Source: Phaeovulum sp. (GTDB lineage Bacteria > Pseudomonadota > Alphaproteobacteria > Rhodobacterales > Rhodobacteraceae). Taken from it: a DNA stretch of 64,000 bases. The stretch spans positions 62,001 through 126,000 of the forward strand of contig NZ_JAUXPI010000003.1 of the NCBI RefSeq assembly GCF_030684035.1, in the 5' to 3' direction. The notes under the pieces are model-generated. The model was given only the letters and a program-made list of their open reading frames with translations. It did not search any database and was not told the origin of the DNA. Positions 31,312 through 49,635 of this stretch are shown piece after piece. Position numbers and translations under genes: made by a program. Numbering within the stretch: position 1 is the first letter of the stretch; every line of letters starts with the position of its first letter.

Positions 31312-31713
31312 TGGGTCTCCGCAGCTTGGACCCGCCCTGCTCTAGGGCGTATATGGGCAACTTTCAAGGCACCGAGGCGTGCGAATCGTTACCGCGGCGC
31401 ATGGCACAAGGATGCCCCAGGTTGATTCGCTCTGGCGCGCGTCAATGCCCCCGCGCCCGGAACGCCAGGTAACATCACCGTCGCGTGAACAGGCAATGTC
31501 TTGAAATAACATGCCAAAAAAGTGCTGCAAATCGCTGTTTTTACAAAGTTACCGACTAGTCTGTGAATTTATTTACAAAATAATTCAACTCACAAAGGGG
31601 GTTACATCAAATGCCACAATTGGTTTACAATCCCCTTGGGATGGAGAGCCCGATGTTTTCGGGGGTGCGAGGTCACCGCGCTGCGTGATCTCGGGGATAG
31701 GGAGGATAGGGCA
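31312..31713. other. Intergenic control region between FMN-barrel gene and acs
   Basis: This 402-nt divergent spacer has no convincing gene. Its acs-proximal third (about 31500-31635) is markedly AT-rich for this genome and carries four TTTACAA-like repeats. The last 15 nt hold GGAGGA (31701-31706), the acs ribosome-binding site. Confidence 0.5.
31540..31630 (+). promoter_or_regulatory. Cluster of TTTACAAA repeats upstream of acs
   Basis: TTTACAAA occurs at 31540-31547 and 31572-31579, TCACAAAG at 31590-31597 and TTTACAA at 31624-31630. The spacings are 32, 18 and 34 nt. They sit in an AT-rich island 80-170 nt before acs. The motif is one base from TTTGCAAA, the core reported for RamB/ScfR-type short-chain-acid regulators, so it may bind such a protein. 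Function is inference. Confidence 0.45.
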
Positions 31714-33687
<1,974 letters not shown>

Positions 33688-33691
33688 GCGG

Positions 33692-34378
33692 ATGCAGGGC
33701 AGGGCAAAAACCACCCCCGCCGTGTTGATCCTGCTCGGGCCACCCGGCGCGGGCAAGGGCACACAGGCGCGCATGCTTGAAGAGCGTTACGGGCTGATTC
33801 AGCTTTCCACGGGCGATCTTTTGCGCGCCGCGGTTGCTGCGGGCACACCTGCGGGGAAAGCCGCCAAGGCGGTCATGGAGGCCGGGCAACTGGTCAGCGA
33901 CGACATCGTTCTGGCGATTCTGAAAGAGCGGATGGCCGCCCCTGACGTGAAGGCGGGGGTCATACTTGATGGCTTCCCGCGCACCGACGGGCAGGCTACG
34001 GCGCTCGACGGTCTTCTGGCCGCGTCAGGGCAAAAGGTAACCGCCGCAATCAGCCTTGAGGTTGACGACGAGGCGATGGTGGCGCGGGTTTCGGGCCGCA
34101 CCACCTGCGCGGGTTGTGGGGAAGGCTACCATGACGAATTCAAACGGCCCGCCACGGCGGGGGTTTGTGACAAATGCGGCGGCACGGAGTTCAAGCGCCG
34201 GGCCGACGACAATGCCGAAACGGCGAGGGAACGGCTGAAGGCCTACCACGACCAGACGGCACCGCTGATTGCGCATTACGCGAAGGCAGGGGTTCTGGAA
34301 ACGATCGACGCGATGGGCTCCATCGACGAAATCGCGTCCGGCCTGGACCAGATCGTGGCGCGCGTTTCAGCACCTTGA
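33692..34378 (+). CDS. adk: adenylate kinase with zinc-type LID
   Basis: Adenylate kinase interconverts AMP + ATP and 2 ADP. The 228-residue protein has the P-loop GPPGAGKGTQA near residues 16-26, the AMP-binding LSTGDLLRAA near 38-47, DGFPRTDGQ near 92-100, and a long LID containing two CxxC pairs (CAGC near 139 and CDKC near 159) that should bind a structural metal. It begins 5 nt after acs, so AMP from acetate activation can be recycled by a co-transcribed enzyme. It is a second-position adk outside the ribosomal-protein operon; another copy elsewhere is possible. GTG 33722 is a shorter alternative start. Confidence 0.93.
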   Translation: MQGRAKTTPAVLILLGPPGAGKGTQARMLEERYGLIQLSTGDLLRAAVAAGTPAGKAAKAVMEAGQLVSDDIVLAILKERMAAPDVKAGVILDGFPRTDGQATALDGLLAASGQKVTAAISLEVDDEAMVARVSGRTTCAGCGEGYHDEFKRPATAGVCDKCGGTEFKRRADDNAETARERLKAYHDQTAPLIAHYAKAGVLETIDAMGSIDEIASGLDQIVARVSAP

Positions 34379-34439: not shown

Positions 34440-34697
34440 ATGGCGGACAAATCTTCGTCCAACGCCTACTGGAAAGCGAACATCCGGATGATTCAGCTCT
34501 TTCTGATCATCTGGTTCGTCGTTTCCTTCGGCTTTGGCATCATTCTGCGCCCGATGCTCATGGGCATCGCGGTGGGCGGCACCGATCTGGGCTTCTGGTT
34601 TGCCCAGCAAGGCTCGATCTTGGTCTTTCTTGTCCTGATCTTCGTTTATGCCTGGCGCATGAACCGGCTCGACAAGGAATTCGGCGTCGAAGAATAA
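34440..34697 (+). CDS. DUF4212 small subunit of a sodium/solute symporter
   Basis: The 85-residue product has two membrane helices (about residues 15-37 and 52-73) and matches the DUF4212 layout, including the N-terminal NAYWKANIRMI and the C-terminal YAWRMNRLDKEFGVEE. Genes of this type always sit directly before a VC_2705-type sodium:solute symporter. They are thought to be its small subunit. The start is ATG 34440 with a GGGAG ribosome-binding site. It lies 61 nt after adk and 15 nt before the large subunit gene. Confidence 0.88.
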   Translation: MADKSSSNAYWKANIRMIQLFLIIWFVVSFGFGIILRPMLMGIAVGGTDLGFWFAQQGSILVFLVLIFVYAWRMNRLDKEFGVEE

Positions 34698-34712: not shown

Positions 34713-36524
34713 ATGGATCAATTTACCCTCAACTTGCTGGTGATTGGCGCGACCTTCGCGCTTTACATCGGCATCGCGATCTGGGCCCGCGCGGCCTCGA
34801 CGTCAGAGTTCTATGCGGCGGGTCGCGGTGTGCACCCGGTGCTGAACGGCATGGCGACCGGCGCTGACTGGATGTCGGCGGCATCGTTCATTTCGATGGC
34901 CGGTATCATCGCCATGGCGGGTGCCGGTGGCTATGAGCAGTCGGCCTATCTGATGGGCTGGACCGGCGGCTATGTGCTGCTGGCGCTGCTGCTTGCGCCC
35001 TACCTGCGCAAGTTCGGCAAGTTCACCGTGCCGGAATTCATCGGCGACCGCTTCTATTCGAAGTCGGCGCGGATGGTGGCGGTGGCCTGCCTGATCATCG
35101 CCTCGGTCACCTACGTTATCGGCCAGATGACCGGCGTCGGCGTTGCCTTCGCGCGCTTCCTCGAAGTGAAATCGTCAACCGGTCTCTATATCGGCGCGAC
35201 GATCGTGTTCGCCTATGCCGTGCTTGGCGGCATGAAGGGCATCACCTATACGCAGGTTGCCCAGTACTGCGTGCTGATCGTCGCCTATACCATTCCGGCG
35301 ATCTTCATCTCGCTCAACCTGACCGGCAACTTCCTGCCGCAAGCCGGCCTCTTTGGCACCCACTCCGCCTCGGGTGTGGCGCTGCTGGCCAAGCTTGACA
35401 GTCTGGTTACCGAACTCGGCTTTACCCAGTACACCGGCCACACCAAGAACACGCTCAACATGGTGCTGTTCACCATGTCGCTGATGATCGGCACCGCCGG
35501 CCTTCCTCATGTGATCGTGCGCTTCTTCACCGTTCCGAAGGTCGCTGATGCGCGCGCTTCGGCCGGTTGGGCGCTGGTGTTCATCGCGCTTCTCTACACC
35601 GTCGCCCCCGCCGTTGGCGCGATGGCCCGGCTGAACCTGACCACCACCTTCTGGCCCAACGCCATTACCGGCAATGCCTTCGACGGCCCCGCCGTCTCGG
35701 TTGCCGACATCGCCTCGAAGCCAGAGCTGAACTGGATCAACAACTGGGTCAAAACCGGTCTGTTGAAGTTCGAAGACAAGAATGGTGACGGCCAGATCCA
35801 GTACTACAACGACAAGAACCCGACGGTGAAAGCTGCGGCGGAAGCCAAAGGCTGGACCGGGAACGAACTGACCACGGTGAACAACGACATCATCGTGCTG
35901 GCCAATCCCGAAATCGCGCGTCTGCCCGGTTGGGTTATCGCGCTGGTCGCCGCCGGTGGTCTTGCCGCCGCGCTCTCGACCGCTGCGGGCCTGCTTCTGG
36001 CAATTGCTTCGGCCATCAGCCATGACGTGATCAAGGGTGCGATCAACCCGAGCATCTCGGAAAAGGGTGAACTGCTGGCCGCGCGGATCGCCATGGGTGC
36101 GGCGATTATTGTGGCAACCTACCTTGGCCTCAACCCGCCGGGCTTTGCGGCGCAGACCGTGGCGCTTGCCTTCGGTATTGCCGCCGCCTCGATCTTCCCG
36201 GCACTGATGATGGGCATCTTCTCGAAGCGCATCAACAACAAGGGCGCGGTCGCGGGGATGCTTTCGGGCCTGATCTTCACGCTCGTCTACATCTTCATCT
36301 ACAAGGGCTGGTTCTTCTTCCCCGGCACCAACCAACTGCCTGACAACGTCGATAACTGGGTGTTCGGCATCTCGCCGCTCTCGATCGGTACCGTCGGCGC
36401 GCTGGTAAACTTCGCGGCGGCCTATATCGTGTCGCTCGCTACCGAAGAGCCGCCGCAGGAAGTGCAGGAGTTGATCGAGTCGATCCGCGTGCCGAAAGGC
36501 GCAGGCGCGGCGACCGCTCACTAA
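34713..36524 (+). CDS. sodium:solute symporter large subunit (VC_2705 / ActP-like)
   Basis: This SSS-family transporter of 603 residues has about 13 hydrophobic segments. It carries the family-typical STSEFYAAGRGV and GADWMSAASFISMAG near residues 30-62 and TAAGLLLAIASAISHDV near 430. Paired with DUF4212 it belongs to the VC_2705 subgroup, whose members act on acetate or other small carboxylates where known. Its position two genes after acs supports that. A hydrophilic insertion near residues 350-370 contains D355-K-N-G-D359-G-Q-I362, which looks like an EF-hand calcium loop. The start is ATG 34713 with GGGAGAGCAGGG upstream. Confidence 0.88.
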   Translation: MDQFTLNLLVIGATFALYIGIAIWARAASTSEFYAAGRGVHPVLNGMATGADWMSAASFISMAGIIAMAGAGGYEQSAYLMGWTGGYVLLALLLAPYLRKFGKFTVPEFIGDRFYSKSARMVAVACLIIASVTYVIGQMTGVGVAFARFLEVKSSTGLYIGATIVFAYAVLGGMKGITYTQVAQYCVLIVAYTIPAIFISLNLTGNFLPQAGLFGTHSASGVALLAKLDSLVTELGFTQYTGHTKNTLNMVLFTMSLMIGTAGLPHVIVRFFTVPKVADARASAGWALVFIALLYTVAPAVGAMARLNLTTTFWPNAITGNAFDGPAVSVADIASKPELNWINNWVKTGLLKFEDKNGDGQIQYYNDKNPTVKAAAEAKGWTGNELTTVNNDIIVLANPEIARLPGWVIALVAAGGLAAALSTAAGLLLAIASAISHDVIKGAINPSISEKGELLAARIAMGAAIIVATYLGLNPPGFAAQTVALAFGIAAASIFPALMMGIFSKRINNKGAVAGMLSGLIFTLVYIFIYKGWFFFPGTNQLPDNVDNWVFGISPLSIGTVGALVNFAAAYIVSLATEEPPQEVQELIESIRVPKGAGAATAH

Positions 36525-36622: not shown

Positions 36623-38446
36623 ATGAACGACGATCTCAAGGCGACCATCGCGTTTCTCGAAACCGTGCACCCCTACGATACCTTGCCCAAGGACGAACTG
36701 GCGCGGGTCGCCGGTTGCTTCGTGCGCAATGAGTTTGCGGCCGATACGCTGGTTTACCAGATCGGCGAGCCATTGGCCGGGATATTCCTGATCAAGCGCG
36801 GCGGGGTCGAGGTGCTTGACCGCAATGGCGGGCTGGTTTCATTGCTGGCTGCGCGCAACACCTTTGGCGAGCGCGGGCTGATGCGTGATGGCCTGGCCGC
36901 CACCACCGCCCACACCCGCGAGGACAGCACAATTCTGATGCTGCCCGCGATCGAGTTTCGCGAGCTGATCGCGCGCTTTCCCTCGTTCGAGCGGTTTTTC
37001 AATCGCGGTCGCGGTCAGGACCATCACACCAGCGACATTTCGACGCTGAAGGTGGCCGACCTGATTGCCCGCAAACCGCTGTCCTGCGCGCCCGACACGC
37101 CTGTTGCCGAAGCCGCAAGGATGATGCGCGATGCCCAAATCTCGAGCCTCGGCGTCACCGATGGCGAAAAGCTCGTGGGCATTCTTACGGTGCGCGATCT
37201 GGCAAACAAGGTGCTGGCCGAAGGTCGCAGCGCCACCACACCGGTTGCCAAGGTGATGACCGCCAAGCCGATCTCGCTGCCCCCTACGGCGCTCGGGACA
37301 GACATTTTGCACATCATGCTGGAACGCAAGATCGGGCATTTGCCGATTGTTGAAGATGGCCGCTTTGTCGGCATGATCACCCAGACCGATCTCACCCGGT
37401 TTCAGGCGGTCAGCTCGGCGGTGCTGGTACGAGATCTGGCAGGGGCGACAAAGGTTGCAGAGATGGCCGCGGTCACCGCGCGCATTCCAAGGCTTCTGGT
37501 GCAACTTGTGGGCGGCAACCACGCGCATGAGGTGGTGACGCGGCTGATTACCGACATTGCCGATACCGTGACCCGCCGCCTGCTGGCACTGGCCGAGGCG
37601 GAGCTTGGCGCGGCACCGGTGCCCTATCTCTGGCTCGCCTGCGGCAGCCAGGGGCGGCAGGAACAGACCGGCATCTCCGATCAGGACAACTGCATGATCA
37701 TCCACAATAATGCCACGCCGGATGACATGGTCTATTTTGCCAAGATGGCGAAGATCGTCAGCGACGGGCTGAATGAATGCGGCTACGTCTATTGCCCCGG
37801 TGACATGATGGCCACCGCCGACCGCTGGCGCGTGCGCCAAAAGCTCTGGCGCGACTATTTCCAGCGCTGGATCGCCGTGCCATCGAACGAGGCGCAGATG
37901 CTCGCCTCGGTGATGTTCGATCTGCGCCCGATCGGCGGAACGGTCAGCCTCTATCAGGAATTGCAGCAAGAAACGTTGGATATGGCCGCCAAGAACTCGA
38001 TCTTTGTGGCGCATATGATCGCAAACTCGCTCAAGCACACGCCGCCTCTGGGCCTCATTCGTGGCTTCGCCACGATCCGCTCGGGCGAACACCGCAACCA
38101 CATCGACATGAAGCACAACGGAGTGGTGCCGGTGGCTGACCTCGCGCGCGTCTATGCGCTGCAAGGCCGTCTCACCGCAGCCAATACCCGCGCCCGACTG
38201 CAAGGTGCGGAAGCGGCGGGGATCATCTCCACCTCGGGCGCGCGCGACCTGATCGAGGCCTACGACCTGATCGCCTCGATGCGGCTGGAAAACCAGGCGC
38301 TTCTGGTGCGCTCGGGGCGCAAGCCCGACAATTTCCTTTCACCGACCGACCTTTCGGATTTCGAGCGCAGCCACCTTCGCGATGCGTTCGTGGTGGTGCG
38401 CACAATGCAATCGGCGCTTGCACACGGCAAAGGCGCACCGGGCTAA
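36623..38446 (+). CDS. cNMP-binding / CBS / DUF294 nucleotidyltransferase-like protein
   Basis: This is a multidomain cytosolic protein of 607 residues. Residues about 15-125 form a cyclic-nucleotide-binding (CAP effector) fold with GEPLAGIFLIKRG. Two CBS motifs follow at about 145-200 and 210-265. Next comes a DUF294 nucleotidyltransferase-like domain with G341-S342 in CGSQGRQEQT and the metal-binding pair D353-x-D355 (ISDQDN). A C-terminal DUF294 helical domain ends the protein. The pattern resembles the GlnD-type nucleotidyltransferase fold, so it may modify a protein or make a nucleotide signal, with ligand sensing by CBS and cNMP domains. It lies in the symporter operon; in bacteria these genes commonly neighbour such symporters and a DnaQ-like nuclease. 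Confidence 0.87.
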   Translation: MNDDLKATIAFLETVHPYDTLPKDELARVAGCFVRNEFAADTLVYQIGEPLAGIFLIKRGGVEVLDRNGGLVSLLAARNTFGERGLMRDGLAATTAHTREDSTILMLPAIEFRELIARFPSFERFFNRGRGQDHHTSDISTLKVADLIARKPLSCAPDTPVAEAARMMRDAQISSLGVTDGEKLVGILTVRDLANKVLAEGRSATTPVAKVMTAKPISLPPTALGTDILHIMLERKIGHLPIVEDGRFVGMITQTDLTRFQAVSSAVLVRDLAGATKVAEMAAVTARIPRLLVQLVGGNHAHEVVTRLITDIADTVTRRLLALAEAELGAAPVPYLWLACGSQGRQEQTGISDQDNCMIIHNNATPDDMVYFAKMAKIVSDGLNECGYVYCPGDMMATADRWRVRQKLWRDYFQRWIAVPSNEAQMLASVMFDLRPIGGTVSLYQELQQETLDMAAKNSIFVAHMIANSLKHTPPLGLIRGFATIRSGEHRNHIDMKHNGVVPVADLARVYALQGRLTAANTRARLQGAEAAGIISTSGARDLIEAYDLIASMRLENQALLVRSGRKPDNFLSPTDLSDFERSHLRDAFVVVRTMQSALAHGKGAPG

Positions 38447-38462
38447 CAAGGACAATCGGCCA

Positions 38463-38984
38463 ATGGCAATCGACTGGATCACGATGGCGGCGGTGGGCAT
38501 TCTGGCCTTCTGCATTGTCTTTGCGGCCAACCACCTGAGCAAGCGACGGCTGCCGAAATGGCTGATGCCCGCCGCCATCGGCGGCTCGATGATCGCCTAT
38601 TCGGTCTGGAACGAATATTCCTGGTTCGACCGTGTGCGCGCCGATCTTCCCGCCAGCGTGGTGATTTTGGCCGAGGTGCAGGGCGGCGCGCCGTGGCGGC
38701 CCTGGTCTTACGCCTTCCCGGTGACCTCGCGGTTCATTGCGCTCGACAGGGCGGCGGTGCTGCGCTCTGCCGCCTCGCCCGATCTGGTAGCTACCGACGT
38801 TCTGCTGGTGACACGCTGGGGCCAAACGGTGCGGGTACCGGTCGCCTTCGATTGCAAGGCCGGCGCGCGTGCCGATCTGGTGGAAGGTGCCGAACTGGTG
38901 CCCGACGGAACCCTGCGCGGTGCCACCTGGGTGGCGGTGGGGTTGGATGACGAGATGCTGAAGGCCGCCTGCAACGGAGGATGA
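38463..38984 (+). CDS. membrane-anchored protein of unknown function
   Basis: The 173-residue product begins MAIDWITMAAVGILAFCIVF and has two membrane segments (about residues 5-23 and 34-50) with a short basic link (KRRLPKW). A C-terminal domain of about 120 residues is probably periplasmic and shows the repeated strand pattern typical of small beta-rich domains. No family is recognised. It starts 17 nt after the DUF294 gene and stops 3 nt before the receiver gene, so it belongs to the same operon. Its role there is unknown; membrane tethering or sensing is a guess. Confidence 0.68.
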   Translation: MAIDWITMAAVGILAFCIVFAANHLSKRRLPKWLMPAAIGGSMIAYSVWNEYSWFDRVRADLPASVVILAEVQGGAPWRPWSYAFPVTSRFIALDRAAVLRSAASPDLVATDVLLVTRWGQTVRVPVAFDCKAGARADLVEGAELVPDGTLRGATWVAVGLDDEMLKAACNGG

Positions 38985-38987
38985 GCA

Positions 38988-39383
38988 ATGGCCGACGGTG
39001 GAAGAAAACACCGGGTTCTGGTGGTCGAGGACGAGGACAATATTGCCATCGCGCTCGATTATCTGCTGACCCGCGAAGGCTATGACCACGACCGCATCGC
39101 CAATGGGGCCGAGGCAATGGCGCGCATCCGCGCGACGCTGCCCGACCTTGTGCTGCTTGACGTGATGCTGCCCGAGGTATCGGGGTACGAGATCTGCCAG
39201 ACTGTGCGCGCCGACCCCGCGCTCATTGGCGTGAAGATACTGATGATGACGGCGCGCGGTTCAGCGATGGAGCGGCGCAAGGGGCTGGCGCTGGGTGCCG
39301 ACGGCTTCATTGCCAAGCCATTCGAGTTGAAGGAACTGCGCGCCGAAGTGCAGCGCCTGCTTGCTGCGGAGCCGGGGTCATGA
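38988..39383 (+). CDS. single-domain response regulator (CheY-like)
   Basis: This 131-residue protein consists of a receiver domain only. Acidic residues EDED near 15-18, phospho-acceptor D58 in LLDVMLP, Thr in MMTARG near 88 and K110 in AKPFE are all present, so it should be phosphorylatable. No DNA-binding or enzymatic output domain follows. Its ATG lies 3 nt after the membrane protein stop, and its stop overlaps the start of the sensor/exonuclease gene (ATGA at 39380-39383). It therefore probably works with a histidine kinase, but the neighbouring sensor lacks its phospho-His, so another kinase must donate phosphate. Confidence 0.9.
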   Translation: MADGGRKHRVLVVEDEDNIAIALDYLLTREGYDHDRIANGAEAMARIRATLPDLVLLDVMLPEVSGYEICQTVRADPALIGVKILMMTARGSAMERRKGLALGADGFIAKPFELKELRAEVQRLLAAEPGS

Positions 39384-41476
39384 TCGAACGGCTCAGCCTG
39401 CGGATCCGGGTTTTCCTGTTCTTCGTGGCGCTGGCAGCAGGCAATCTGGGCGCGATCATTGCGGGCATCTATGCTGGCTACCATCGCATTGAAGACCCTG
39501 CGGTATTCAACGCCTTCATTCAGGGCGGCATCATCACCGGCTTCACCATCCTGGGTCTGATCACCTGGGTCTGGTTCCTGTTCGACAAGAATGTGGCGCG
39601 ACCGATCGAGCGATTGGCGGGCGGCATTCGCGCCCGCACCCATGCCGAGGTTTCGGCAGAGCTTGACCACACCTCTGGCAAGTATCTCGGCGATCTGGCA
39701 CCTGCCGCGCTTGCGGTAACCCAGTATCTGGCCGAGACGCGCGACGCGCTTTCCGGGGCGGTGGAACGCGAGACGGCGCGGCTGGAGACCGAAAAGGGGC
39801 GGCTGGAAACGCTCTTGTCCGATGTGCCGGTCGGGGTTCTCCTGTGCACAGCTGACCATCAGTTGGTGTTCTACAACGGGCAAGCAGTTGATCTGCTGGG
39901 TCGTGCCGACACATCGCAGGGACCGGGGCTTGACCGCGGCCTCTTTGAATACCTGCACCACGCGCCGATCGAGCAAGCCTGGGCACGGCTGCGCGAAACC
40001 GACGATCACGATGCCGCTTCGGATCTGCTCTGCGCAACCACCGGCTCGGGCAAGGTGCTGGCGGCGCGGATGCGGCTTCTGGCAGAGCCGGTTGGCAGCG
40101 ACGGCACCCGGCCAAGACCCGGCTATGTGCTGACGCTGCGCGATGTGAGCAGCGATCTGGCGTCGCAAGCCGAGCGCGAGGCACTGATCGACGAGATGTT
40201 CGACAGGGTGCGGCGCCCGGCGGCAAACCTGCTTTCGGTGATTGGGGTGGTGACCGAAGCGGGCGGTGCGCTGCCGGAGAAACTTGGCGGCGCGATGTTG
40301 GCCGAGGTAACGGCTCTGGCGCAGGCGGTCACCGAGCTGGCCGCGCGCCACGATGCGGCGCGGGCAGAATGGCGGCCGCTCAGCCTGGTCCGCGCCTCCG
40401 ATCTGACCGAGGCGATCCGGGCGCGGGCAGGGGCAGAGGGCGTGGTGCTCGATGTCGCGGCGCAAGAGCTGATCCTGCGTTGCGACGGGTTCGAGCTTGC
40501 GGCGCTGATGGCGTCGCTGGCGGCGCGGCTGGCATCCGGTCGGCAAGGCCTGCGCGTGGAGATCGGCGAGGATGGGCCGGGGGCGCTGATCGCGCTTGCC
40601 TGGCAGGGGCCCGCGGTTTCGGTCAGCGAGCTTGACCGCTGGCTTGATGCGCCGCTTGAGGTCGGCATGCCCGACCTGACCGGGCGGCGGGTGCTGGCAA
40701 CGCATGCTACCGAAATCTGGCCCGAACCGCTGGCCGCAGGCGAAGCGCGCATCTGCCTGCCGCTGCGCGAAGTGCGCCGCGCCCACAAGCGACCGGCACC
40801 GGTGCTGCGCGCCGTGGTCTATGACTTTGACCTGCTGCTCAAGGACCGCCCGGCAAGCCTGATGGCGGCGCGCCTTGATGATCTGACCTATGTCGTGTTC
40901 GACACCGAGACGACAGGTCTTCTGCCCGCGCAGGGCGACGAGATCGTGCAGATTGCCGGGGTGCGGATCGTCAACGGGCGGCGGCTGGAAAAGGAAGTGT
41001 TCGATGCGCTGGTGAACCCGGGTCGCCCGATCCCATCGGCATCGACCGAGGTGCATGGCATCACCGATGCAATGGTAGCCGATGCGCCCGACATTGCCGA
41101 TGTCGGGCGCCGTTTCCACGCTTTCGCCAAGGGCGCGGTGCTGGTGGCGCATAACGCGCCCTTCGATGTCGAATTCCTGCGCCGCAAGCAGGCCCGGATC
41201 GGCGCGGTGTTCGACCATCCCACGCTGGATACGGTGCTCTTGTCGGCGGTGGTGTTCGGGCAGGGCGAGAGCCACAGCCTCGATGCGCTGACGCATCGGC
41301 TCGGGATCACCATTCCCGAGGAGGCGCGCCATACGGCGATTGGCGATACCGTGGCGACCGCCGAGGCCTTCCTGAAGCTTCTGCCCTCGCTCAAGGCGCG
41401 CGGGCTTGAGACCTTTGGCGATGTGCTGCGCGAGGTGCGCAAGCACGGGCGGCTGCTGAAAGATCTGAACGGCTGA
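39380..41476 (+). CDS. membrane sensor pseudokinase fused to DEDDh 3'-5' exonuclease
   Basis: This 698-residue fusion has two N-terminal membrane helices (about 10-30 and 47-67), a HAMP-like linker, a PAS domain (about 145-255, SDVPVGVLLCTADHQLVFYN) and a DHp-like helix. There the usual H-E-L-R-T-P-L reads D275-R-V-R-R-P-A, so the phospho-acceptor is lost. A weak ATPase-like region follows. From about 500 there is a DnaQ-type exonuclease with D508 and E510 (DTETTG), H591-D596 (HNAPFD) and H651-D656 (HTAIGD), all catalytic positions intact. The protein probably senses a signal at the membrane and regulates nuclease action on DNA, RNA or a nucleotide signal. It is coupled to the receiver gene by a 4-nt overlap. 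Confidence 0.86.
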   Translation: MIERLSLRIRVFLFFVALAAGNLGAIIAGIYAGYHRIEDPAVFNAFIQGGIITGFTILGLITWVWFLFDKNVARPIERLAGGIRARTHAEVSAELDHTSGKYLGDLAPAALAVTQYLAETRDALSGAVERETARLETEKGRLETLLSDVPVGVLLCTADHQLVFYNGQAVDLLGRADTSQGPGLDRGLFEYLHHAPIEQAWARLRETDDHDAASDLLCATTGSGKVLAARMRLLAEPVGSDGTRPRPGYVLTLRDVSSDLASQAEREALIDEMFDRVRRPAANLLSVIGVVTEAGGALPEKLGGAMLAEVTALAQAVTELAARHDAARAEWRPLSLVRASDLTEAIRARAGAEGVVLDVAAQELILRCDGFELAALMASLAARLASGRQGLRVEIGEDGPGALIALAWQGPAVSVSELDRWLDAPLEVGMPDLTGRRVLATHATEIWPEPLAAGEARICLPLREVRRAHKRPAPVLRAVVYDFDLLLKDRPASLMAARLDDLTYVVFDTETTGLLPAQGDEIVQIAGVRIVNGRRLEKEVFDALVNPGRPIPSASTEVHGITDAMVADAPDIADVGRRFHAFAKGAVLVAHNAPFDVEFLRRKQARIGAVFDHPTLDTVLLSAVVFGQGESHSLDALTHRLGITIPEEARHTAIGDTVATAEAFLKLLPSLKARGLETFGDVLREVRKHGRLLKDLNG

Positions 41477-45445: not shown

Positions 45446-45519
45446 GCGGGTGTAGCTCAATGGTAGAGCAGCTGCCTTCCAAGCTGAATACGTGGGTTCG
45501 ATTCCCATCACCCGCTCCA
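45446..45519 (+). tRNA. tRNA-Gly(UCC)
   Basis: This 74-nt cloverleaf has acceptor arms GCGGGTG/CACCCGC, D-arm GCTC/GAGC, anticodon loop CTTCCAA with anticodon TCC, T-arm GTGGG-TTCGATT-CCCAT and an encoded CCA end. By my pairing the anticodon stem GCTGC/GCTGA has a T-T opposition at 29-41 and a G-A at 27-43. Confidence 0.93.
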
Positions 45520-45731
45520 TCTTCTCCCTTTGGCCAAATGGCTGCTCTGGTGCGCCGCGTTGCAGCACCTTTCCTGCCTTTGCGATGGCAAGCGCAGCGG
45601 GGTTCTGGCGCGCGTCATCCCCATTGGGCAAACGTTGGCAGGACTGGCGCAGGGCAAAATGCGCGGCGCAGACAGACCGGGCGCGCGGACCCTGCGGCGC
45701 GCCCTGTCACATGGTGTCACGATCTCGGCGG

Positions 45732-45866
45732 TCAGCCCTTTTTCGGCGGCTTGGCGGCGTTTGGCGAAAGGCCTTTTTCAAAGGTCGCGGTGGCGGCTGG
45801 GGCTACCTTCTTGTCCTTCTTCGGTTTCTTCGCTTCCTTGTTGCTGCGCAATTGGCTTTTGGCCAT
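45732..45866 (-). CDS. 44-residue lysine-rich conserved small protein
   Basis: This short gene encodes 44 residues beginning [18 protein letters not shown] and ending in KPPKKG. It is very basic (11 Lys before residue 32) and has no hydrophobic segment, so it is a soluble, probably disordered or nucleic-acid-contacting protein. Similar [16 protein letters not shown]-type small proteins recur in proteobacteria, which supports reality. GGGAG lies 6 nt upstream of ATG 45866. No function is known. It lies antisense to no other real gene, between tRNA-Gly and the oxoprolinase gene. Confidence 0.75.
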
Positions 45867-46050
45867 GACATGCTCCCATTGTGCCGACGGCGGGCGAGAC
45901 TCGCCCCCGTGCCGATGCTATTTGGCTCCCATTCGCCCCTGCTCCGCAAGAGCTTTGAATGATGGCGCGACCGTGGTGCCGCGCGGAGGCCTTTGGTTGA
46001 CATTGCCGCCCTGCGGGCCCGACAAGGGGCCGGGATGTGCCGGGGGCAAC

Positions 46051-49000
46051 ATGGCTTGGGAATTCTGGATCGACCGTGGCGGTACCTTTACCGATATCGT
46101 GGCGCGCGCCCTTGACGGCAATTTGCGGGTGCTCAAGCTGCTTTCGGAGAACCCCGAGCTTTACCAGGATGCGGCGGTCGAGGGCATCCGCGCGGCGCTT
46201 GGCCTGACGGCAGGCGCACCAATCCCAGCGGGCGCGATTGGCGCGGTCAAGATGGGCACGACCGTGGCCACCAACGCCCTTCTCGAGCGCAAGGGCGAAC
46301 GGGTGCTTTTGCTGGTGACGCAGGGATTTGTGGATTTGCTGCGGATCGGCAACCAGACCCGGCCACGACTTTTCGATCTCGACATCCGCCGCCCCGATCT
46401 GATCTACGAACGCGTCGCTGAGGTGCCGGGGCGGCTCGATGCCGAGGGGGAAGAAATTGCGCCGCTGAACGAGGGCGCGGTGGTTGCGGCGCTGGCCGAT
46501 GCCCATTCGGCGGGTATTCGCGCGGTGGCGGTGGTCTTGATGCACAGCTACCTCAACCCCGCGCACGAGGTCCGGGTGGGGGCGCTGGCGCAGGCGGCGG
46601 GGTTCACCCAGGTATCGCTGAGCCACGAATGCTCGCGGTTGATCCGGCTTGTGGGGCGCGGCGATACCGCAGTGGCCGATGCCTATCTTTCGCCGATCCT
46701 GCGGCGCTATGTCGTTCAGCTTGCTGCGGCGCTTGATCTGGGGCGCGGCACCGGGCGGCTTTTCTTCATGCAGTCGTCGGGCGGTTTGACCGATGCGGCG
46801 CGCTTTCAGGGCCGCGATGCAATCCTGTCAGGCCCTGCGGGGGGCATTGTCGGCATGGTGAAAACCGGGCTCGCGGCGGGGTTCGGCAGGCTTATCGGCT
46901 TTGATATGGGCGGCACCTCGACCGATGTCAGCCATTATGCCGGCAGCTATGAACGCAGTTTCGAGACCGAGGTTGCCGGGGTGCGGATGCGCGCGCCGAT
47001 GATGGATATTCACACCGTCGCGGCCGGTGGCGGCTCGATCCTGCGTTTCGCCGACGGGCGCTATCAGGTCGGGCCGGAAAGCGCGGGCGCAAACCCCGGC
47101 CCAAGCGCTTACCGGCGCGGCGGGCCGCTGACCGTGACCGATGCCAACGTCATGCTCGGGCGGCTCAACCCCGGCCATTTCCCCGCGCTCTTCGGCCCCG
47201 GTGGCGATGCGCCGCTTGATGCGCAGGCGGTGCGCAACGGCTTCGCGCGGCTTGCCGCCGAAATTGGCGCGACCACCGGGGATGTACCTGCGGCCGAGGC
47301 GGTGGCCGAGGGCTTTCTTGCCATAGCCGTTGCCAATATGGCCAATGCGATCAAGAAGATATCGGTGCAGCGCGGGCATGATGTGACCGCCTACACGTTG
47401 CAGTGTTTTGGCGGCGCGGGCGGCCAGCATGCCTGTGCCGTGGCCGATGCACTGGGCATGCGGCGGGTGCTGTTGCACCCTTTCGCGGGGGTGCTTTCTG
47501 CCTATGGCATGGGGCTGGCCGAATTGCGCAGCCTGCGCGAGGAGCAGGCCGATGCGGGGTTGGATGCAGCGCCCGCGATGCGGGCGCGCATCGAGGCTTT
47601 GCTGGCCGAAGCCCGGGCCGATCTGCTGGCGCAGGGCGTGGCCGATGCTGACATCGCCACCGCCGCGCGGGCGCATTTGCGCTACGAAGGGTCGCATCAG
47701 GCGCTGGAAGTGGATTTTGCAGAACCCTCCGCCATGCAGGCTGCTTTCGAGGCGGCGCACCACGCGCGGTTTGGTTACACCGACCCCGCCCGCGCCATCC
47801 GCTTCGAGATGCTTGCGGTTGAGGCGGCAGGCGGTGCCGCAGCGCTGGCCGAAAAGGCCCGGCCGCCGGGGTCGGCAGGGCCGGTTGCACGTCACCCCGT
47901 CTATTTCGCCGGTGCCTGGGTCGAGACGCCATTCCATGACCGCGCCCAGCTTGGTGCCGGGGCACGGATTGCCGGGCCAGCGGTCTTGCTCGAGGAAACC
48001 GGCACGACCGTGCTCGAACCCGGTTGGTCTGCCCGTGTCGATGGCACCGGCAACCTCATTCTGGAGCGCGAGAAAGCGGCATCCCACAGCCGCGCCGCAG
48101 GCACCGAGGCCGATCCGGTGCGGCTGGAGGTGATGTCGAACCTTTTCATGTCCATTGCCGAGCAGATGGGGGCCACGCTTGCCAATACCGCCTGGTCGGT
48201 CAACATCAAGGAACGGCTCGATTTTTCCTGTGCGATTTTCGATCCGGGCGGCAACCTTGTTGCCAACGCGCCGCATGTGCCGGTGCATCTTGGCTCGATG
48301 TCGGATTCGATCCGAACGGTGATGCGGGTGGTGGGCGAGCGGGTGGCCGAGGGCGACGCCTACATGCTGAACTCGCCCTATGCCGGGGGCACGCATTTGC
48401 CCGATGTCACCGTGGTCAGCCCGGTTTTCATTGGCGGGCGGGTGCTTTTTTGGCTTGGCTCGCGTGGGCACCACGCCGATATCGGTGGGCGCACCCCGGG
48501 GTCTTGCCCGCCAGACAGTCGCGAGATTTCCGAGGAAGGGGTGCTGATCGACACTTTCCGGCTGGTCTCCGGCGGCGTCATGCACGAGGCCGCGGTGCGC
48601 AGGCTGCTCGCCTCGGGCCGCTACCCGGCCCGCGCCCCCGACCAGAACCTCGCCGACCTCAAGGCGCAGCTTGCCGCAAACGAGACCGGCCGGCGCGAAC
48701 TGGTCCGCGCCGCCGAGGTCTGGGGGGCGGAGGTGCTGGGGGCCTATGCGGGCCATGTGCAGGACAACGCCGAGGCGCTGGTGAAAAACGTGATCGGCAC
48801 ATTGACCGATGGCAGCTTTGCCTACCCGCTCGACAGTGGCGCAACCATCAAGGTGGCGCTGCGGGTAAACCGCGCCGCAGGCCGCGCCACGGTCGATTTC
48901 ACCGGAACCTCGCCGCAGGACAGCGGCAACTACAACGCCCCTGCCGCAATTGCGCGGGCGGTGGTGCTTTATGTCTTCCGCACGCTGGTAGGCAAGGACA

Positions 49001-49635
49001 TTCCGCTGAACGAAGGCTGCCTGCGACCGATCGACATCATCCTGCCCGTGGGCTCAATGCTGAACCCGCGCCCGCCTGCCGCCGTCATCGCAGGCAATAC
49101 CGAAGTGAGCCAGGCGGCGACCAATGCGCTTTATGGCGCGCTTGGCGTGCTCGCCGCCAGCCAGGGCACGATGAACAACTTCACCTGGGGCAATGCGGCG
49201 TTTCAGAACTATGAGACAATCGCGGGCGGTGCAGGGGCCGGGCCGGGGTTTTCAGGGTGTGACGCCGTTCAAAGCCACATGACCAATACCCGAATGACCG
49301 ATCCAGAAGTGCTGGAGCGCCGCTTTCCGGTGCGGCTTGAAAGCCTTTCCATCCGCCACGGTTCCGGCGGCGCGGGGCGCTGGCGGGGCGGGAATGGTGC
49401 GGTGCGGTGCTTGCGGTTTCTGCAAGCGGTCACGGTTACCGTGCTTTCCTCGTCGCGCCGCGTGCCACCCTTCGGCGTGGCCGGCGGCGGTGCCGGGGCA
49501 GTTGGCGAAAACACCGTGATCTGGCCAGACGGGCGGCGCGAGAGGCTTGCGGGCAACGACGAGCGCGATCTGCCAGCGGGGGCGGTGTTCGAGATGCGCA
49601 CGCCCGGTGGTGGCGGCTGGGGCACGCAGGAATAA
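46051..49635 (+). CDS. fused hydantoinase A/B (5-oxoprolinase family) protein
   Basis: The 1194-residue product joins a HyuA-like ATP-dependent domain (residues 1 to about 685, [15 protein letters not shown] near the start and [14 protein letters not shown] near 288-301, both phosphate-binding loops of the ASKHA fold) to a HyuB-like domain (from about 690, [17 protein letters not shown], with [12 protein letters not shown] and the metal-site-like [12 protein letters not shown]). This is the layout of 5-oxoprolinase, which hydrolyses 5-oxoproline to glutamate with ATP. Related fused enzymes act on other cyclic imides or amides, so the substrate is open. The start is ATG 46051. No amidohydrolase or transporter neighbour narrows it. 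Confidence 0.88.

Follow-up and report, generated by a model that had tools for sequence, protein, structure and literature searches.

A sensor pseudokinase fused to an apparently intact DEDDh exonuclease in Phaeovulum sp., and its association with DUF294 nucleotidyltransferases in organic-acid uptake operons

Pseudokinases that read a receiver, DEDDh exonucleases and GlnD-type nucleotidylation are all known already, and all three bear on the protein described here, the 698-residue product of a gene within a 64,000-nucleotide stretch of Phaeovulum sp. (contig NZ_JAUXPI010000003.1, positions 62,001 to 126,000; hereafter the window) that joins a sensor-kinase-like region to a DEDDh exonuclease. 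The kinase-like region resembles DivL of Caulobacter crescentus, which has a dimerisation and histidine phosphotransfer (DHp) and catalytic ATP-binding (CA) fold without the acceptor histidine, an upstream PAS domain and a paired single-domain receiver. DivL acts on another kinase, whereas the window pseudokinase is fused directly to the exonuclease and its binding of a receiver is predicted. The exonuclease resembles those of the DnaQ/PolC type in its five catalytic residues and Exo I–III motifs, and differs from them in being fused, in this and related loci, to a sensor pseudokinase or to a DUF294 nucleotidyltransferase, with no polymerase context.

The SSS/STAC kinases (CrbS/MxtR, RpuS) place the uptake of acetate or pyruvate under two-component control; the window protein differs from them in having neither a symporter domain nor an acceptor histidine. 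A further comparison is offered by GlnD and GlnE, protein-modifying enzymes in which the writer and the eraser of a nucleotide mark are linked or fused, although their erasers are not known to be DEDDh exonucleases. The sections of PMC3710099 on these families describe related nucleotidyltransferase and substrate-binding domains and group DUF294_C with the substrate-binding domains of GlnD and GlnE. In Pseudomonas putida, the relevant passages of PMC9927547 place PP_0354, a CBS-domain protein, and PP_0353, an exonuclease of the RNase_T family, in one operon belonging to the MxtR/ErdR (also CrbS/CrbR) regulon, and report that ΔPP_0353 and ΔactP-I mutants, the latter without the transporter ActP-I, grew more slowly on pyruvate while a ΔPP_0354 mutant was not; the counterpart operon of P. 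aeruginosa adjoins actP/yjcH. PP_0353 is likened to the window exonuclease by domain and operon. Unlike the window protein, the stand-alone exonucleases found in DUF294 loci have no membrane, PAS or kinase match. PMC5715377 deals with a P. fluorescens protein that combines cAMP-binding and CBS domains with a nucleotidyltransferase; it repeats the prediction that such proteins work by nucleotidylation and reports that deleting this one made a negligible difference on acetate. PMC5436829 and PMC7918813 contained nothing under the terms sought. Apart from the P. putida operon, neither a fusion of a sensor pseudokinase to an exonuclease nor an exonuclease-DUF294 pairing was described among the matches listed by our literature search, whose scope left out most subscription journals, and no assignment of function to the fusion protein was found in the literature searched.

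The domains of the fusion protein follow in the order of two apparent membrane helices, PAS, histidine-kinase-like DHp and CA, and DEDDh exonuclease, all on the plus strand.

39380–41476, plus strand: transmembrane-PAS-pseudokinase-DEDDh exonuclease protein, 698 residues (single open reading frame, Pfam, alignment, structure model)
39398–39643, plus strand: two apparent membrane helices and the start of a HAMP-like linker, residues 7–88 (model helices 7–36 and 40–88; hydrophobic by eye)
39797–40144, plus strand: PAS domain, residues about 140–255 (PAS_4 in 53 of 66 family members at E ≤ 0.1; model)
40148–40372, plus strand: pseudo-DHp hairpin, residues about 257–331, with the D275 codon at 40202–40204 (alignment, profile match, model)
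40376–40777, plus strand: pseudo-CA (HATPase-like) domain, residues about 333–466 (alignment, model, structural comparison)
40886–41449, plus strand: DEDDh 3'-5' exonuclease domain, residues about 503–690, with D508, E510, D596, H651 and D656 (Pfam, alignments)

The initial annotation had read this gene as a single fused frame, and our comparison agrees with it: the frame is uninterrupted, overlaps the open reading frame of the preceding receiver by four bases, and has full-length homologues so frequently (80 loci, the best of 147 relatives in a search of genome contigs) that the fusion is not an artefact. Across the phylum, 34 of 299 genomes gave one match spanning from residue 91 or before to residue 681 or beyond, and the protein is spread across Pseudomonadota. 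Translation as two separate products was ruled out by the conservation of the fusion across the full-length loci. One of the 80 loci (L017) carries stop codons within the matched stretch and was dropped from both alignments (A1 and A2) but kept in the tables based on open reading frames; L071 and L079 were also excluded from alignment, and the remainder was thinned to 66 sequences. A homologue alignment of 110 rows includes the window protein. A short form with membrane helices, PAS and exonuclease but no kinase-like region occurs in 28 genomes of the same family (L113–L140).

Of the N-terminal features named initially, the two membrane helices and the PAS domain are apparent, while the linker can be termed only HAMP-like, as no HAMP match was found in Pfam. 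The model helices lie only a few residues apart, so that a periplasmic sensor domain seems to be missing; the suggestion of a membrane-sensed protein therefore stands insofar as the modelled protein looks membrane-anchored, and falls short in that almost no part of it lies outside. The receiver, the PAS domain and the adjacent transporter are for this reason the likelier sources of any signal.

Pfam matched the window protein only with RNase_T (PF00929) at residues 505–664 (133 bits) and, weakly, with PAS. The nearest solved sequences to the exonuclease are those of PolC and DnaQ, and the catalytic residues reported initially are retained in nearly all of the 110 aligned homologues (D508 and E510 in 110, D596 in 109, H651 and D656 in 108, with gaps accounting for the remainder). 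With all five predicted catalytic residues in place, the DEDDh exonuclease is apparently intact.

The kinase-like region has kept its fold and lost its catalytic residues. No HisKA, HATPase_c or SSF match was obtained from Pfam in the window protein, and when residues 70–500 of the 66 members were scanned singly at E ≤ 0.1, no HisKA, HATPase_c or HAMP appeared among the 19 families matched, which included five PAS models and were otherwise scattered. A profile built from the same residues matched the kinase VicK/CovS (4i5s) with an E value of 3.5e-8, and this alignment set an acidic residue of the family, D275 in the window protein, in the column of the phospho-acceptor histidine, as the initial annotation had proposed. 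Among 110 rows, this column contained D in 71, E in 30, A in three, and G, Q and M in one each, with three gaps and no histidine in the 107 residues. As a control, the genuine kinases of two related loci (L156 and L170) were aligned to the DHp profile of the family, and the histidine within HELRTP fell in this column. Structure prediction with AlphaFold, a check suggested at the outset, returned a PAS domain followed by a DHp hairpin and a CA-type fold. Foldseek ranked sensor kinases highest, WalK and CovS among them, and VIA-align gave Z scores of 13–14 against kinase CA domains, mostly across 119–131 residues. DivL (4q20), itself a pseudokinase, was among the best of these matches (Z 13.7). 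Judging by eye from the alignment, the asparagine positions of the N-box are lost and the aspartate column of the G1 motif (DxGxG) is occupied by W408, a residue invariant among the 66 aligned members. Judged on its residues, the DHp/CA part is a form that cannot phosphorylate, its acceptor histidine being replaced and its ATP motifs gone, and it looks like an old, family-wide pseudokinase rather than a case of local decay.

The fusion gene is preceded by a receiver gene.

38988–39383, plus strand: single-domain receiver (REC) with phospho-acceptor D58 (Pfam PF00072, 91 bits)

Related loci were sorted by whether they encode DHp, CA and, next to them in the same orientation, a receiver. Of 162 loci, 116 had all three, 30 had none, 13 had CA only and three had DHp and CA but no receiver next to them; a receiver without DHp was not found. 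Expressed as DHp with receiver, neither, DHp only and receiver only, the counts were 116/43/3/0 in the full set, 100/43/3/0 in the 146 loci left once near-copies were removed and 52/35/3/0 in 90 loci thinned at 80% identity; on the 90-row tree DHp changes nine times and the receiver 12 times. The 162 loci were drawn from the best full-length matches (79, rich in DHp), a phylum-wide search (23) and our own picks (60), the last chosen on similarity and on the state of the kinase region and not on receiver state, except for six re-fetched loci (L167–L172). The 162 exclude the locus of the window itself (L083) and six loci that had been retrieved a second time; copies of one species that came from two collections are still present in this set but mostly gone from the 146. 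From 136 matched genomes of the family, 28 with the short form and some of those with the long form were taken, so that the proportions are not frequencies. A receiver fragment at a contig end (L064) was scored as present and an opposite-strand receiver frame (L171) was not counted. Likewise scored as lacking a receiver was a locus with a degenerate receiver-like frame (L166:3536–3877, 18 bits), in which the phospho-acceptor aspartate is by eye seemingly absent and the kinase region alongside is degraded.

In the receivers themselves, D58 and K110 are present in every one of the 120 aligned rows (repeats included), and T/S88 in all but one. In a distance test on 70 of the 115 receiver-DHp pairs, the partial correlation of the receiver was 0.389 with DHp, given the exonuclease, in comparison to 0.309 with CA and 0.082 with the membrane-PAS part. 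The joint absence of DHp and receiver gene favours a DivL-like role, in which a pseudokinase reads a receiver, and gives indirect support to the initial suggestion that kinase-like contacts with the receiver remain. On these sequence patterns, docking of the receiver on the pseudo-DHp is the simplest reading, and we consider it probable. The passages of PMC4211667 on DivL and DivK~P describe such a reverse flow, with the pseudokinase side reading the receiver.

No active kinase was found among the operon genes examined. In two loci, however, a kinase with HisKA and HATPase_c above cut-off directly precedes the receiver (L156:1740–4451, plus strand; L170:2695–5352, minus strand), which suggests a possible source of the receiver's phosphate. 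As in the SSS/STAC kinases, the long N-terminal part of both appears symporter-like by eye, although Pfam, with the threshold relaxed as far as E 10, matched no symporter family there. Of the 83 and 84 NCBIfam families matching, the 25 listed fall almost exclusively on the kinase part. A relative of these kinases occurs in the genome of the window itself (L173), with what appears by eye to be its own receiver-like frame beside it.

The fusion gene is the last of an eight-gene run on one strand, an operon of the acetate-type or organic-acid uptake kind, and the same gene order was observed in most of the 80 full-length loci that reach far enough, mainly from Rhodobacteraceae. The remaining six genes of the run, upstream of the receiver, are as follows.

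31636–33687, plus strand: acetyl-CoA synthetase, acs (open reading frame with uncertain start, named by eye; upstream in most loci reaching that far)
33692–34378, plus strand: adenylate kinase, adk (open reading frame, named by eye; position kept in most loci reaching that far)
34440–34697, plus strand: small membrane protein of the DUF4212 family, a likely partner of the symporter (Pfam PF13937, 116 bits)
34713–36524, plus strand: VC_2705-family sodium/solute symporter (NCBIfam TIGR03648, 817 bits)
36623–38446, plus strand: protein with cyclic nucleoside monophosphate (cNMP)-binding, CBS, DUF294 nucleotidyltransferase and DUF294_C domains (Pfam; nucleotidyltransferase motif at residue 341)
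38463–38984, plus strand: membrane-like protein, here called U200, between the DUF294 gene and the receiver or exonuclease gene (start by eye; longest open reading frame from 38382)

U200 gave no Pfam family above cut-off and no NCBIfam match, and it is kept in 116 of the 123 loci whose upstream DNA extends to 4 kb or more.

The DUF294 gene is a conserved neighbour of the exonuclease. Among the 129 loci with 3.3 kb or more of upstream DNA, 123 carry it upstream in the same orientation, every one with an intact nucleotidyltransferase motif; a further 33 loci had too little upstream DNA for a call. Of the six loci without it in this position (L155, L156, L168, L169, L170 and L171), two have DUF294 farther upstream (L156 and L170) and the genome of a third has it about 4 kb away on the opposite strand (L169). 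The association also holds in the other direction, as 25 of 30 DUF294 loci, the best matches of a phylum-wide search, have an exonuclease gene adjacent or one gene removed, and five have none in the available stretch (L186, L187, L192, L203 and L208). Five of the 25 (L180, L182, L188, L190 and L196) were scored positive by a membrane-PAS part, the stretch stopping before the nuclease, and the other 20 show the nuclease domain itself, in frames with no membrane-PAS or kinase match. A further relative (L216) has N at the position of D656. In 15 further stretches with an exonuclease or DUF294 match, both genes were adjacent or overlapping in five, exonuclease alone was found in four (L219, L220, L221 and L223) and DUF294 alone in one (L217), and the remaining five contained single-chain fusions of exonuclease, CBS and DUF294. 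These fusions, from five genomes of the same class as the window (L209, L210, L211, L212 and L218), keep all five exonuclease residues and the nucleotidyltransferase motif. We conclude that exonuclease and DUF294 very probably form a functional pair. As stand-alone, fused and pseudokinase-linked exonucleases all accompany DUF294, the pseudokinase is one of several control attachments on this core pair.

Our best explanation of the locus, in which a receiver-set exonuclease erases a DUF294 mark, is one that we hold with nearly even confidence, the balance lying just on the doubtful side. The protein would be a DEDDh phosphodiesterase anchored in the membrane, and the receiver would set its activity by docking on the pseudokinase, the presumed direction of control running from receiver to enzyme. 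DUF294, gated by cNMP and CBS ligands, would attach a nucleoside monophosphate (NMP) to a component of the uptake system, with the symporter or DUF4212 as first candidate targets; this mark would inhibit uptake, and the receiver-gated exonuclease would erase it. A DEDDh enzyme could do so because a protein-O-5'-NMP with a free 3'-OH resembles the 3' end of a nucleic acid, an argument from chemistry for which snake-venom phosphodiesterase offers an analogy of NMP removal. That the exonuclease removes a nucleotide bound to protein rather than one on RNA is a tentative proposal, somewhat more open to doubt than to acceptance, and the complete scheme of a reversible nucleotidylation switch on organic-acid uptake, with DUF294 as writer, the DEDDh enzyme as eraser and a receiver on a dead kinase as its gate, is possible but rather doubtful. 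An inhibitory mark predicts that a strain without the eraser behaves like one without the transporter and that a strain without the writer shows no defect. The published P. putida mutants follow this pattern, and erasure of a DUF294 mark would explain their puzzling phenotype. DUF294, a widespread nucleotidyltransferase with an undefined role, would gain a partner and a testable function, and DnaQ-type exonucleases would gain a new job. A pseudokinase that reads a receiver and gates an exonuclease would be a form of two-component output for which we found no description, an unusual enzyme output for such signalling, and possibly a categorically new mechanism.

Several observations weigh against this explanation. 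Many family members have the exonuclease without the kinase region, which is thus not essential for the exonuclease, and three loci (L079, L164 and L171) retain DHp without an adjacent receiver. Well-supported branches of the tree offered just three independent pairs, in which the receiver was concordant in 2.8 on average and never opposite (median p 0.25), so that with too few pairs the sign test for joint loss is not significant. With the rest controlled, the receiver correlated as well with the exonuclease (0.343) as with DHp (0.342), and the distance test therefore gives weak support, as it does not single out DHp. The arrangement of the domains is uncertain, as the models reached a predicted template modelling score (pTM) of 0.56–0.59 (the run with 66 sequences had a mean predicted local distance difference test of 83.9 and a pTM of 0.59). 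The 20 exonucleases seen beside DUF294 all keep D508, E510, H651 and D656, but 16 of them have E at the D596 position and may for this reason differ in activity. To our knowledge, no nucleotidylated protein has been found in an uptake system of this kind, nor has removal of protein-bound NMP by a DEDDh enzyme been established. The orthology of PP_0354/PP_0353 with the DUF294/exonuclease pair of the window is assumed from domains and gene order, and PP_0354 is called only a CBS-domain protein in the passages of PMC9927547 that deal with it.

The main alternative on the exonuclease side is that it acts on RNA under receiver control, either trimming 3' ends, perhaps of tails added by DUF294, or degrading uptake or acetate transcripts. 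This suits the enzyme family as well, since the closest solved relatives, PolC and DnaQ, are nucleic-acid exonucleases, and the polymerase beta-like nucleotidyltransferases, to which DUF294 belongs, count RNA-tailing enzymes among their members. The authors of PMC9927547 also speculate, in the part of that report concerned, on mRNA decay. The grouping of DUF294_C with GlnD and GlnE (PMC3710099, in the section cited above) speaks for a protein target instead, and the membrane anchor and the fixed place beside a transporter hint at a local one; we regard action on RNA as possible but on the whole unlikely. Hydrolysis of a linear dinucleotide such as pGpG or of another second messenger, the substrate proposed initially, would accord with the degradation of dinucleotides by some DEDDh enzymes, but the sequence neighbours of the domain are exonucleases of the PolC/DnaQ type, no cyclic-dinucleotide enzyme was present among the scanned operon genes, and both neighbourhood and gene fusions point to the DUF294 partnership instead, leaving this substrate very improbable.

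The kinase-like region could alternatively be a passive relic or a dimerisation linker, with the receiver working elsewhere, which would agree with the relatives that dispense with the whole region and with the three receiver-less DHp loci. Against such a relic stands the absence of any receiver from the 43 DHp-less loci, and of any receiver without DHp from all 162, and it appears improbable. An active kinase using another residue is the least credible reading of all: the CA fold is retained, but the acceptor column is D or E in 101 of 107 homologues and never histidine, and the N-box and G1 motifs are missing by eye. On these grounds, together with the VicK profile alignment, it was rejected.

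Elsewhere in the window, an open reading frame of 1391 residues at 45460–49635 resembles, by eye, fused hydantoinase/oxoprolinase A and B subunits.

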